35,485 nucleotides of DNA from Pseudomonadota bacterium (GTDB taxonomy: Bacteria > Pseudomonadota > Gammaproteobacteria > Pseudomonadales > Moraxellaceae), in NCBI GenBank assembly GCA_021804355.1, contig JAJZHP010000013.1, positions 1 through 35,485 on the forward strand, in the 5' to 3' direction. The notes under the pieces are model-generated. The model made no database searches. It had not been told where the DNA came from and saw only the letters and a list, made by a program, of their open reading frames with translations. The translations under genes and the position numbers were made by a program. Of the stretch, positions 27,792 to 32,298 are shown one piece after another (the first letter of the stretch is position 1; the number at the start of each line of letters is the position of its first letter).

Positions 27792-28415
27792 ATGAGATTT
27801 TCAGCTTGGTGGGTCGGTTTGAGTTTACTGGCCAGCACATGGGTACATGCCGATGAGCAGGCAGTACAGCAACTCAACCAGGCCTTGATGCATATCGATG
27901 ATGCCAAGGCGCATTTCACCCAGCACATCATTGATACCCGAGGTGTGCGAGGCCGTGAATTCAGTGGCACCATGCAAGTTAAGCGTCCTGGGTATTTTCG
28001 CTGGGATACTCAGCAGCCCTATGCTCAGACCATAGTGGCTGATGGTCACAAGGTATGGGTCTATGATCCGGATTTAAACCAGGTGCTTATTGAAGCCATG
28101 GACAAGCAGGTGGGTAATACGCCAGCCTTGTTATTAAGTAGCAATACACAACAATTGGCTAAGAATTTTGAAGTCACCTCAGAACCGGTTCCCGCGGGTG
28201 AAGCCTCATTTTTATTAAAACCTAAATCCTCCGACGCGATGTTTGAGGCGATGCGTATCAAGTTTGCGCAAGGGGTGATTACTGAGATGCAGCTGAAAGA
28301 CAGTATGGGTCAGAAGACACGTATTCAGTTTACTGAGGTTCATTACCATCAGGCGCTGGATACACATGTTTTTCAGTTCAAGATTCCCCAGGGCGCAGAT
28401 GTTGTTCAACAATGA
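27792..28415 (+). CDS. lolA: Outer-membrane lipoprotein carrier protein LolA
   Basis: 207 residues from ATG 27792 (GGAG upstream). The signal peptide RFSAWWVGLSLLASTWVHA is cleaved before DEQ. The mature protein has the LolA pattern: AKAHFTQHIIDTRGVRGREF, GTMQVKRPGYFRWDTQQPY, and VADGHKVWVYDPDLNQVLIE. It shuttles lipoproteins across the periplasm from LolCDE to LolB. It sits between ftsK and rarA, as in Pseudomonas and E. coli, and is probably cotranscribed with ftsK. Confidence 0.95.
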   Translation: MRFSAWWVGLSLLASTWVHADEQAVQQLNQALMHIDDAKAHFTQHIIDTRGVRGREFSGTMQVKRPGYFRWDTQQPYAQTIVADGHKVWVYDPDLNQVLIEAMDKQVGNTPALLLSSNTQQLAKNFEVTSEPVPAGEASFLLKPKSSDAMFEAMRIKFAQGVITEMQLKDSMGQKTRIQFTEVHYHQALDTHVFQFKIPQGADVVQQ

Positions 28416-28432: not shown

Positions 28433-28543
28433 GTGTCTGATTTATTTAGCATCACACCAATGCCTCCCCTGGCTGAGGCCCTGAGACCGGCCTTATTAGA
28501 CGAGGTCGTCGGACAGACTCATCTGCTGGGTGAGGGCAAGACC
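28433..28543 (+). pseudogene. rarA: 5' scar of the native rarA (first 37 codons)
   Basis: GTG 28433, in the usual place 17 bases after lolA, encodes MSDLFSITPMPPLAEALRP and continues LLDEVVGQTHLLGEGKT. This aligns residue for residue with the N-terminus of the complete rarA just downstream (MADLFAQDPVPPLAEALRP...LDEVIGQSHLLGEGKP). After codon 37 all similarity stops and the frame becomes AT-rich nonsense (VKSFIKHRLIKI...), closing at 28633. The AAA+ domain is missing, so the fragment cannot be functional. Its codon use matches lolA and ftsK, so it is taken as the remnant of the ancestral gene. Confidence 0.85.
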
Positions 28544-28625
28544 GTAAAATCATTTATAAAACATAGACTTATAAAGATAATAGTGCAATTAATTGTGCTT
28601 CCCCATTGTTTTCAGGGGGGAAGCT
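28544..28625. other. AT-rich junction between rarA scar and complete rarA
   Basis: About 80 bases of AT-rich DNA separate the scar from the second rarA. They include a palindrome CAATTAATTG (within gtgcaattaattgtgc) and end with GGGGGGAAG, a ribosome-binding site for the ATG at 28626. They probably arrived with the second gene as its leader. I see no transposase remnant or clear direct repeat. Confidence 0.4.
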
Positions 28626-29930
28626 ATGGCTGATTTGTTCGCGCAAGATCCTGTACCACCATTAGCTGAAGCACTTCGTCCCAAGACCTTGGATGAAGTG
28701 ATTGGGCAATCCCATCTGCTTGGTGAAGGAAAACCGCTGAGATTGGCATTCCAGTCTGGGAAACCTCACTCCATGATCTTCTGGGGGCCACCAGGTGTAG
28801 GGAAGACGACTCTAGCAAGATTGACTGCCACAGCATTCAAGTGTGAGTTCATTGCGTTATCGGCCGTGTTCTCTGGTGTAAAGGACATCCGTGGTGCAAT
28901 GGAACAAGCTGAACAGAATTTGGCACAGGGTAAGCACACCATTCTGTTTGTGGATGAAATTCACAGGTTCAATAAGTCCCAACAAGATGCTTTGCTTCCC
29001 TATGCTGAAAATGGATTGGTAACGTTTATCGGTGCCACAACAGAGAATCCATCTTTTGAAGTTAATTCGGCCTTGCTGTCACGAGCTCAGGTATATGTGC
29101 TGAAGTCGTTGACTGACGATGAATTGAAGCTCCTGCTGAAACGGGCACATGAAAAGGTATTCCAAGAACTGGAATTTGACGATCTGGCCGTTGAAACCAT
29201 CGTTGGCTATGCTGATGGGGATGCCAGAAGATTTTTGAACCTGCTGGAACAATGTGCAAGGGCTGCTGGTGCTTCTGGCATTACGAGAATTGATGCTGAA
29301 TTCATCGGTAATGCACTCACACTGAATTCCAGACGTTTTGATAAAGGTGGCGATAATTTTTATGACCAAATATCAGCACTTCACAAATCGGTTCGTGGTT
29401 CAAATCCAGATGCAGCATTATATTGGCTGACTCGGATGTTGGATGGTGGTGCTGATCCAAGATATCTGGCGCGAAGAATAATCAGAATGGCTTGGGAAGA
29501 TATTGGGTTAGCTGATCCAAGAGCGATGCAAATAGCAAATGATGCTGCAAATACCTTTGAAAGATTGGGAAGTCCTGAAGGTGAATTGGCACTTGGACAG
29601 GCAGTAATTTATTTGGCTGTAGCTGCGAAAAGTAATGCTGGATATATGGCATACAACCAAGCACGTGCATTTGTTAAAGATGATAAGAGTAGGGAAGTAC
29701 CTGTTCATCTGCGGAATGCACCAACCAAGCTGATGAAGGAACTTGGTTATGGTCATGAGTATAGGTATGCTCATGATGAACCAAATGCATATGCTGCTGG
29801 TGAAACTTATCTTCCAGATGGAATGAAAGAACCTGGGTGGTATCAGCCCGTTCCACGTGGGTTGGAAATAAAGATTGCTGAAAAGCTCGCTCACCTGCGG
29901 AAGCTGGATCAAGAAGCAGGTAATTCGTAG
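28626..29930 (+). CDS. rarA: Replication-associated recombination protein A (RarA/MgsA), probably acquired
   Basis: 434 residues, full family length. ATG 28626 follows GGGGGGAAG. The AAA+ core has Walker A FWGPPGVGKTTLARL (near 53-67), Walker B TILFVDEIHRFNKSQQD (near 103-119) and sensor 1 FIGATTENPSFEVN (near 134). The tetramerisation (MgsA C-terminal) domain has DGGADPRYLARRIIRMAWEDIG and ends WYQPVPRGLEIKIAEKLAHL. RarA acts at stalled forks and remodels SSB-bound ends. Codon use is unlike the neighbours: many AGA/AGG arginines and A/T third bases, where ftsK, lolA and serS prefer CGT/CGC. It looks like a xenologue that replaced the native gene. Confidence 0.93.
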   Translation: MADLFAQDPVPPLAEALRPKTLDEVIGQSHLLGEGKPLRLAFQSGKPHSMIFWGPPGVGKTTLARLTATAFKCEFIALSAVFSGVKDIRGAMEQAEQNLAQGKHTILFVDEIHRFNKSQQDALLPYAENGLVTFIGATTENPSFEVNSALLSRAQVYVLKSLTDDELKLLLKRAHEKVFQELEFDDLAVETIVGYADGDARRFLNLLEQCARAAGASGITRIDAEFIGNALTLNSRRFDKGGDNFYDQISALHKSVRGSNPDAALYWLTRMLDGGADPRYLARRIIRMAWEDIGLADPRAMQIANDAANTFERLGSPEGELALGQAVIYLAVAAKSNAGYMAYNQARAFVKDDKSREVPVHLRNAPTKLMKELGYGHEYRYAHDEPNAYAAGETYLPDGMKEPGWYQPVPRGLEIKIAEKLAHLRKLDQEAGNS

Positions 29931-29939
29931 ATTCGGATC

Positions 29940-29990
29940 TCTCCGTACTCAGCGGGTGGCTGCTGCTTGCGCGGTCACCGGATCCTTGAA
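29940..29990 (-). mobile_element. Degenerate IS605-type right end downstream of rarA
   Basis: On the minus strand this reads ccgcgcaagcagcagccacc then cgctgag, close to ccgcgtaagcggcagccatc then agctgag in the tnpB right end at 35083-35121. An aggatccgg block also aligns with aggaatcta there. Roughly three quarters of about 39 aligned bases agree by eye. No transposase frame remains next to it, so it is a relic. At 30002-30025, on the opposite strand, a 24-base stretch matches the last codons of that tnpB (20 of 24). Confidence 0.5.
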
Positions 29991-30287
29991 TGTCATGGAC
30001 CCCTGAAAGGATGAGGGTCTAAGGAAACACCAGGGTTTTAAGCACTTGCCAATTAAATCAAGGTCAATCAATCCGTGGAATTGAGAAAGTGCGGTGGTGT
30101 CCCGCCATCATGGTTCCTATGCCACGGATTCCCTTTAACGAGGGTAATCACGATGCCGTTTACTCATTGATATCGAGCCCATGACAGCCTAAAAAATCGG
30201 CAGTATTTTGTGTGTCAATTTGCTAGTCTTGTTGCGCAGCGTGCGATGATGGTGTTCTTATCTGTGTATGGAGCTTACAGGATAGTT
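29991..30287. other. Intergenic region without a recognisable gene
   Basis: About 300 bases between the IS605-type relic and the TMEM175 gene hold no supported reading frame. A perfect 9-base inverted repeat, aatccgtgg 30070-30078 with ccacggatt 30122-30130, encloses a smaller gcgg/ccgc pair and could fold as a cruciform or a structured RNA. AGGA at 30279-30282 is the likely ribosome-binding site for the next gene. Confidence 0.4.
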
Positions 30288-30890
30288 ATGCATTCAATGG
30301 AAAAGAATCGACTGGAGGCCTTCAGTGACGGTGTCCTGGCCATCATTATCACGATTATGGTGCTGGAACTTAAAGTCCCTCACGACCAGAGCATCGCCGC
30401 TTTGGTTCCTTTATGGCCCACCTTGCTAAGTTATGTGCTGAGTTTTGTTTATGTCGGAATTTATTGGAATAATCATCATCACATGATGCAGGTTACGCAT
30501 GGTGTCAATGGTGCTGTGCTTTGGTCAAATCTGCATTTGTTGTTCTGGTTGTCGCTGTTGCCATGGACGACAGGATGGATGGGGGAGAATCATTTCACTC
30601 GCTGGCCGACTCTGGTTTATGGAGTGAATTTACTCTTGTGCGCGGTCGCTTATTTCATTCTGCAAACGACGTTAATTCGGCTACAAGGCCCTGATAGCCT
30701 CTTGGCTCGGGCGATAGGTCGAGACTGGAAAGGTAAATCTTCACCAATAATGTACCTATTGGGTATTGTGGCAGCGTGGATGGATGCTCCCCGTTTAGGC
30801 ATATTGTTTTTTGTCGTGGTGTCTCTGCTCTGGTTGGTGCCAGACCGCCGCATGGAAAGAGTGCTTTCAGAGCCTTCGAGACACGTTTAA
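30288..30890 (+). CDS. TMEM175-family (DUF1211) potassium-channel-like membrane protein
   Basis: 200 residues from ATG 30288, chosen for AGGA upstream; a longer frame from 30210 adds an unlikely N-terminus. The defining motif KNRLEAFSDGVLAIIITIMV is at residues 5-24. Further hydrophobic segments are LLSYVLSFVYVGIYW, LLFWLSLLPW, YGVNLLLCAVAYFIL, MYLLGIVAAWM and GILFFVVVSLLWLV, giving about six helices as in bacterial TMEM175. The histidine cluster NHHHMM follows helix 2. The family conducts potassium weakly selectively; a leak-channel role is inferred. In Pseudomonas a crcB gene occupies this slot. Confidence 0.85.
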   Translation: MHSMEKNRLEAFSDGVLAIIITIMVLELKVPHDQSIAALVPLWPTLLSYVLSFVYVGIYWNNHHHMMQVTHGVNGAVLWSNLHLLFWLSLLPWTTGWMGENHFTRWPTLVYGVNLLLCAVAYFILQTTLIRLQGPDSLLARAIGRDWKGKSSPIMYLLGIVAAWMDAPRLGILFFVVVSLLWLVPDRRMERVLSEPSRHV

Positions 30891-31026
30891 GTCCATGGGT
30901 ATCGTGCCACAGTTCATTGGGTAGGCTGAAAGTGAAAAGCCTGAACATAGGCAGTCAACTGCACTAAGGCATGTTGGTTTGGGCTATCATGAACGCTTTG
31001 AAAGTTGGGAAATAAAAGGATATAGC

Positions 31027-32298
31027 ATGCTGGACCCCAAACGGTTACGTACCGATATCGAAGTTGTGGCTGGACGCTTGCGTTTGCGAGCGATGGAACT
31101 TGATGTTGTTCGCTTCCAAACCTTAGAAGAGCAACGCCGTCAGATTCAGACTGAGACGGAGTCGCTGCAGGCTGAACGTAACCGTGGTTCTCGCGAAATT
31201 GGCAAGTTACGTGCTCAAGGTGTGAATACCGATGCTCCTATGCAACGCATGCAGGTCATCAATGATCGTTTAGCAGGTCTTGCTCAACAATTGCAAGAGG
31301 TGCAAAACGACCTGGAACAGTATCTGCTGAGTCTGCCCAATCTCCCTCATGACAGTGTTCCCGCGGGGCAGAGTGAGGCTGATAACGTTGAAGTGAGGCG
31401 TATCGGTGTACCGAAGCCCATGGCTTTTAAAGCCAAGGATCATGTTGATCTGGGTGAAGCCATGGGCTTGCTGGATGCGGAAGTCGCCGTCAAACTGACG
31501 GGCTCTCGTTTTACGGTGCTGAAAGCGGGTTTAGCTCGCATGCATAGGGCTTTGATTCAGTTCATGCTCGATATACATACCCAAGATCATGGTTATGAGG
31601 AAGTTTATGTTCCTTATCTGGTCAATGCTGATAGTTTACGGGGCACAGGTCAGTTACCCAAGTTTGCCAATGATCTTTTCAAGCTGGCAGGCGACAAGCC
31701 TTATTATTTGATACCCACGGCAGAGGTTCCTGTGACTAACCTCGTTCGTGATACTATTCTGGACGAAGCTGATTTGCCACGCCGTTACGTCTGTCATACT
31801 CCGTGTTTTCGTTCTGAAGCAGGCAGTTATGGCCGAGATACCCGAGGTATGATACGTCAGCATCAGTTTGAGAAGGTTGAGCTGGTGCACATGGTTCGGC
31901 CGGAAGATTCCTATGCGGCTTTAGAGGTCTTGACGGGTCATGCAGAAGCTATTTTACAACGTTTAGAGCTTCCATATCGTGTAGTGAGTCTCTGTGGCAC
32001 TGATCTGGGATTTTCCTCAGCTAAAACCTATGATCTCGAAGTCTGGTTGCCGGGTCAGGAAAAGTATCGGGAAATTTCTTCATGTTCCAACTTTGAAGAT
32101 TTCCAAGCACGACGCATGCAGGCTCGATGGCGCCCTGCCGGTGGTAAACCTGAGTTGCTGCATACCCTTAACGGTTCTGCTTTGGCCGTAGGGCGTACAC
32201 TGGTGGCCATTTTAGAAAATTATCAGGATGAGGGCGGGCGTGTGGCCATTCCTACGGCCTTGCAACCTTATATGTCAGGCATGCGAGTGCTGGAGTAG
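31027..32298 (+). CDS. serS: Seryl-tRNA synthetase
   Basis: 423 residues from ATG 31027 (AAAGGA upstream); the frame is open further upstream to 30979, but [10 protein letters not shown] is the family N-terminus. A long antiparallel coiled coil (about 28-100) binds the Ser-tRNA variable arm. Class II motif 2 is [20 protein letters not shown] (near 260-280) and motif 3 is [20 protein letters not shown] (near 380-400). The TAEVP serine-binding segment is present (near 232). cysG starts 2 bases after its stop. Confidence 0.98.

Follow-up and report, generated by a model that had tools for sequence, protein, structure and literature searches.

A probable eroded remnant of a rarA-targeting integrative element, with its own replacement rarA, in a Moraxellaceae genome

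The closest described systems are islands that insert into a protein-coding gene. The recA mobile element (RME) of Vibrio cholerae S24, for which excision and targeting were shown by experiment (PMC4405046), resembles the proteobacterial rarA elements described below in occupying a fixed site in a DNA-repair gene. It also resembles them in its layout: one end holds a complete, divergent version of the split gene, the other a phage-type integrase, and a type II restriction enzyme is in the cargo. The RME differs in having recA as target, a recA promoter of its own with a LexA box and insertions in both orientations, whereas the replacement gene of the rarA elements overlaps in frame with the target stub; the likeness meant here is one of layout. 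The rarA elements, too, contain a complete divergent copy of their target, which is the mark of the RME type. The integrase-bearing mutS elements of Vibrio and other Beta- and Gammaproteobacteria likewise use a conserved repair-gene motif (HTPMMQQ) in distant hosts; they are described as leaving orphaned mutS starts, and mutS as being restored after excision (PMC5296598). The dusA islands are a similar case of an integrase family with one protein-gene target, but this target is reported to be the 5' end of dusA (PMC4482086).

Another described system is a 24-kb cassette of Clostridium. In two species it interrupts rarA at codon 102, and it brings along an intact rarA from another lineage, 69-70% identical according to the later paper (PMC2764570, PMC4824171). 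The cassette differs in being from Firmicutes and in having a 6-bp repeat, TTCATC, at its ends. As this cassette is already known, a rarA-splitting island that brings another rarA is not new in itself. In the open-licence PMC literature, which covers the field partially, we found no rarA island of proteobacteria; as far as this literature shows, what is new is the proteobacterial family, including the recombinases and the ends of its elements, and the fact that the replacement gene overlaps the stub in frame.

The window analysed here is a stretch of 35,485 nucleotides (contig JAJZHP010000013.1) from a metagenome-assembled genome (MAG), 95% complete, of the Moraxellaceae. We consider it very probable that its rarA locus is the eroded left end of a rarA-targeting integrative element carrying a complete replacement rarA. 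The features of the locus are the following, with L098 as the sister species.

27792..28415, plus strand: lolA, left flank in the ancestral place (Pfam LolA; 91.3% amino acid identity to L098)
28433..28540, plus strand: stub of the resident rarA, 36 codons with the native GTG start (81.9% DNA identity to the start of the sister's rarA)
28541..28625, plus strand: element left end (attL side) and leader of the element's rarA (left-end profile)
28433..28633, plus strand: fused stub-leader frame of 66 codons, whose TGA (28631-28633) overlaps the start of the full rarA
28597..28624, plus strand: predicted hairpin GCUUCCCC / GGGGAAGC with the G-rich ribosome-binding site of the full rarA (RNA fold z -3.07)
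28626..29930, plus strand: complete, probably element-derived rarA, 434 amino acids (MgsA_C 222.6 bits; 92% to L035)
29931..30283, no strand: intergenic stretch, no match to the sister (blastn match resumes only at 30284)
30210..30890, plus strand: TMEM175-family gene, right flank common to the sister (Pfam TMEM175; 83.5% amino acid identity to the sister)
31024..32298, plus strand: serS, right flank (Pfam Seryl_tRNA_N and tRNA-synt_2b; 93.9% amino acid identity to the sister)

The initial annotation had placed the native rarA start in its ancestral position after lolA, and the GTG at 28433 does lie 17 bases past the lolA stop (28413-28415). The stub matches the RarA N-terminal profile (iE 6.9e-13) and aligns with the start of the sister's rarA, from inside lolA through GGCAAG at codon 36. 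It is thus real, but 36 and not 37 codons long, the 37th (T) belonging by register to the left end. The full-length protein aligns with E. coli RarA 3pvs (E 1.2e-141), including the Walker A, Walker B and sensor motifs; by sequence it is a complete RarA/MgsA (AAA+) with intact motifs, predicted to work in the cell. A separate native 3' half was absent, as had been claimed: residues from about 129 of the sister's RarA match the window's own genome once, inside the full gene.

Comparison to the sister separates the two pieces of rarA. The stub has 81.9% DNA identity to L098 with 9 of 16 fourfold sites equal, and five neighbour genes have 78.9-84.7% with 499 of 955, while the full rarA has 73.0% identity and only 49 of 160 (Fisher p = 3.7e-7 versus the neighbours). 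The full rarA has more in common with the element-borne gene in Vogesella (L035), with 81.0% identity and 83 of 180 fourfold sites equal (p = 0.0038 versus the sister). Because of this contrast the stub is taken as a vertical piece and the full gene as foreign, in agreement with the first reading. The codon argument used in that reading held in part. AGA and AGG make up 15 of 27 arginine codons in the full rarA and 19 of 143 in FtsK, LolA, TMEM175, SerS and CysG together, and GC3 is 0.36 versus 0.45-0.53 in these genes; the sister's rarA, however, is likewise AGA/AGG-rich (16 of 27, GC3 0.51), so codon bias cannot by itself part the full gene from the sister's and is weakened as sole proof of foreignness.

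If the resident rarA had been duplicated in tandem and the first copy had then decayed, this would fit the 67-68% identity of stub and full gene over 38-39 residues, the betaproteobacterial type shared by the sister's gene and the full gene, and an AU test in which a clade of sister and window is not rejected (p 0.115). We hold this to be very improbable, since the full gene shows an excess of fourfold-site differences from the sister that the stub does not share, and since the stretch between the two copies is an element left end. These two observations rule out the simple duplication that had been named beforehand as able to refute a replacement.

The left end was recognised by comparison with relatives. 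Genomes were scanned with the full RarA, giving at least 579 confirmed loci, of which the best 80, chosen by likeness to the window gene, were taken. In 12 of these best 80 of at least 579 loci the full rarA is preceded, at a distance of 29-110 bases, by a long stub of a different rarA, about 117 codons in length and 50-86% identical to the window gene. Each of these stubs ends after HRFNK, which has decayed in L055, and continues into a leader, of which there are two kinds. With the RarA N-terminal profile, stub remains at iE <=0.016 were seen in 17 of the best 80 loci and in the window. An intein was ruled out as source of the extra 400-460 bases in tblastn spans, which are due to separate N-terminal stubs. 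A genome-wide search in 30 of the best 80 found a separate rarA 3' piece in nine genomes, and in five of the nine it starts at residues 112-114, the cut.

There is thus one insertion point in unrelated hosts, with target halves on both sides (12 long stubs, five 3' halves). It consists of the HRFNK codons in the Walker-B region, one of the most conserved motifs of RarA; like the recA and mutS islands, the elements thus point to repair-gene motifs as a class of integration sites that can be tested. In three genomes the whole element is on a single contig, with rarA cut at the codons for HRFNK/SQQD and the layout of a divergent full rarA at the left end, cargo, and a tyrosine recombinase at the right end. 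The two pieces of rarA lie about 12 kb apart in Pseudoduganella danionis, while in Ramlibacter sp. H39-3-26 and in a Propionivibrio MAG they are separated by about 33-35 kb. The core TT(C/T)AA(C/T)AA, inside the HRFNK codons, is common to the left and right ends; host and element bases diverge just past it, and in our reading the exchange therefore takes place at CAA or close by. Around the core, inspection by eye showed TTGTGC repeats and the inverted arm sequences AAATCAACGACTTA and TAAGTCGTTATTT. On this sequence evidence we class the units in the relatives as site-specific integrative elements of the tyrosine-recombinase type, for which excision as a circle and re-integration are predicted.

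A recombinase gene encoding 423-426 residues is present at all five intact right cuts, pointing away from the 3' piece. Two kinds exist, 43-46% identical, each paired with its matching kind of leader, and the catalytic residues R259, H345, R348, H412 and Y421 (first-row numbering) are invariant; a Pfam Phage_integrase match was obtained for two of the five. At the loci of three of the other four genomes with a 3' piece (L123, L124 and L049) the integrase was absent. While RarA was proposed as the recombining enzyme of the Clostridium cassette (PMC2764570, PMC4824171), the tyrosine recombinase at five of five intact right cuts indicates that in the proteobacterial elements RarA is the replaced part and not the motor. 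This bears on the clostridial cassettes as well: here the integrase does the recombining and RarA looks like a replacement part. In L115 (13032-14129), and also in G082, G067 and L122, an open frame at the right end begins near the integrase gene and continues in frame into the native rarA 3' half, and the orphaned half could be translated in these four.

The proposed sequence of events is that the recombinase integrates at the HRFNK codons and cuts rarA into a 5' part of about 117 codons and a 3' part, after which the cell would live on the RarA of the element. Later deletion of cargo, integrase and right end would make the replacement permanent.

The window fits the end of such a course. A profile of nine element left ends matches positions 28542-28623 with E 4.5e-13 and 49.2 bits, while the best of 100 block-shuffled windows reached 8.6 bits. 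With the same profile, left ends that have no long stub before them were detected in L037, L096, L071 and Pseudomonas agarici (L081, 3.2e-15); in P. agarici (upstream of 5001) the left end and a foreign rarA lie between lolA and serS. The HRFNK core is absent at the window junction, GGCAAG, which has only CAA in common with it, and we therefore class the window as a remnant and not as an element. As its own genome contains no such integrase and 29931-30283 is unmatched in the sister, both the native 3' half and the other parts of the element appear to be lost. The idea of an in-place xenologue replacement by a carrier that rescues the gene it destroys is borne out by the complete elements in relatives together with the left end in the window.

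The foreign rarA could also have arrived by homologous or illegitimate recombination of naked DNA, with the left end as a passenger. A rarA chimera of native and betaproteobacterial type occurs in the same family (L012), and in several relatives a betaproteobacterial-type rarA occupies the ancestral position without any stub. We nevertheless regard this route as unlikely, because the recombinase-side att sequence is present in the left end, correctly ordered and spaced, and is seen at element ends elsewhere; a possible variant is the recombinational transfer of a neighbour's already eroded remnant. That the contig belongs to a draft MAG speaks for an assembly artefact, but both flanks are syntenic with the sister and the same junction anatomy is found in named isolates from other phylum branches, Pseudoduganella danionis, Vogesella fluminis and Limnohabitans lacus, which leaves such an artefact hardly credible.

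A correction to the initial annotation is that the end of the stub probably does not mark where the element went in. In complete elements the insertion is near codon 117, and the stub of the window probably lost about 80 codons afterwards, as in L096, where the stub has an internal in-frame deletion and still ends in HRFNK plus the left end; by our reading of the frames the stubs of L037 and L100 are shortened as well. Direct integration at codon 36, with GGCAA as an off-target core and no later in-frame deletion, would explain why the junction is in exact register with the expected exchange after CAA and why the frame is kept. It seems to us the weaker possibility, though one to be reckoned with, as the overlap with the core is limited to CAA and as L096, L037 and L100 show that stubs are shortened.

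Cargo was annotated for parts of seven elements. That of G060 includes a type II restriction enzyme and methylase, MobC and, below the cut-off, a relaxase-like protein; L047 carries a type III restriction-modification pair, L059 a type II pair and L040 SMEK and HATPase proteins. Among the elements of the 33-35 kb kind, G082 has a TrwC relaxase and a coupling protein, G067 ArdC, and G071 a DrmD-like helicase, a methylase and a type III-like restriction enzyme. Restriction or mobilisation cargo is not visible in every remnant. In many betaproteobacteria (L036, L038, L041-L046, L049-L051, L053 and others) a rarA of the foreign type lies one to several kb after lolA, and the extra DNA may be cargo of older elements.

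An element with integrase was found neither in the window's genome nor in any of 97 relatives of the window, so the donor was not seen in this family. Besides G060, the genome at the centre of both scans, the integrase family had no member in 300 genomes of the order (E 1e-30) or in 369 of the class (E 1e-40). Five Enterobacter plasmids have proteins with 34-35% identity to the integrase over half its length. RarA of the foreign kind had no plasmid or phage record at >=80% (best plasmid 74.9%, phages all <60%), and neither the integrase nor this RarA was found in viral contigs. From these nearly empty searches complete elements appear to be rare, and no plasmid or phage form was found.

In all 12 long stubs (best 80 of at least 579 loci) and in the window the frame of the stub is open from a start codon through the leader, and its stop, a TGA, falls within the new rarA start (CATGGCTGA and CATGCCTGA in relatives, TATGGCTGA in the window). 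It stays open even in some stubs whose catalytic residues are lost (for example GTPGVGKA in L054, GPPEVGKTT in L055), and every stub profile match with iE <=0.48 is in this one frame, the first match in another frame having iE 0.95. Among these matches are six eroded N-terminal stubs (window, L096, L041, L038, L062 and L109), for which the frame is not inherited; the chance expectation is (1/3)^6, about 1 in 700, or (1/3)^5, about 1 in 240, if the Herbaspirillum stubs L038 and L041 represent one event. The list of eroded loci compared for open frames was drawn up by hand. In L109 and L067, however, another frame is nearly as open or more open, and G+C-rich hosts favour open frames.

The leader hairpin of the window has the lowest z of ten leaders, which span -3.07 to -0.06 (L059 weakest), and the mean unpaired probability of its ribosome-binding site is 0.23. 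Over a hand-picked set, accessibility of the site has a median of 0.12 with a leader (n 15) versus 0.35 without (n 63), with p 8e-5 uncorrected for relatedness and type II leaders left out. The G-run of the hairpin shifts register between sequences. At 28553-28581 the window leader includes a promoter-like site (1 found versus 0.6 expected), so the new rarA may have a promoter of its own. When the circle junction of three complete elements was built in silico, the frame into the new rarA was open there as well, so that coupling would reach beyond the integrated state.

We think that the new rarA is probably translated by coupling to the stub frame. Ribosomes from the old rarA start would traverse stub and left end, open the hairpin that hides the ribosome-binding site of the new gene, stop at the TGA inside ATGGCTGA and restart on the new rarA. 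Stubs may then erode in frame only, which would explain why a stub of 36 codons still persists, and a gene stub, usually deemed junk, may be a needed leader. The broadest form of this proposal is that of a proteobacterial element family that splits rarA at the Walker-B motif and keeps the 5' half as a translated leader opening the start of its own rarA, so that host and element are locked together, remnants are reduced to leader plus gene, and rarA has been replaced repeatedly in two proteobacterial classes (older naming); we see this as evenly balanced between right and wrong.

Trees were calculated with FastTree on 142 rows (ten duplicate loci and one duplicate 3' piece omitted, the L122 3' piece excluded by a length rule) and with IQ-TREE on 60 rows picked by hand from these. 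In the former the window rarA falls inside a 69-row set (support 98) with element genes and rarAs of many families, the nearest row being L035 (92%); in the latter it falls in a 35-row set (97/93). Phylogeny, which had been suggested as a check, gave a divided answer: the sister's gene lies outside the 35-row set, but a clade of window and sister alone is not rejected, as mentioned above. A single clade of the window and six relatives of its family is rejected (p 0.0054). Support within the group is weak. No single exclusive clade comprises the element-borne rarAs: three of type II lie outside the 69-row set in FastTree, and the rarA of L096, a locus with both leader and stub, groups with ordinary Oxalobacteraceae genes. 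In P. danionis the 3' half groups with Oxalobacteraceae genes (99/91), as a resident gene should. Replacement by such elements offers a mechanism for a gene-tree puzzle, the swapping of a single-copy replication-fork gene for a foreign one in place.

The destroyed gene had been called native. It was resident and vertically inherited, but stub and sister gene have the betaproteobacterial pattern PPLAEALRP...LLGEGK, unlike the PLAARLRP of other family members, and we infer that it was itself an older import and not of the type ordinary for its order. The event in the window would then be at least the second foreign rarA in this lineage. Other members of the family (L006, L007, L008/L098, L009, L010 and L011) carry, in the ancestral position and with no stub in view, a rarA of the betaproteobacterial type; as these do not form one clade with the window gene (p 0.0054), several imports are indicated. 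In L012 (G017) of the same family the RarA is chimeric: in 40-column windows its first half reaches 97-100% identity with the family's own type (L022), and its second half is 87-92% identical to the window's foreign type.

Two minor observations may be added. The record of L068 is titled Pantoea, but its genes are Comamonadaceae-like and its rarA pairs with that of Acidovorax L053; the species label is probably wrong. The intergenic sequence at 29948-30060 of the window is a short repeat; its own genome has similar copies on contigs C15, C3 and C69, and the C15 copy lies, by our reading, behind a ribonucleotide-reductase-like gene.
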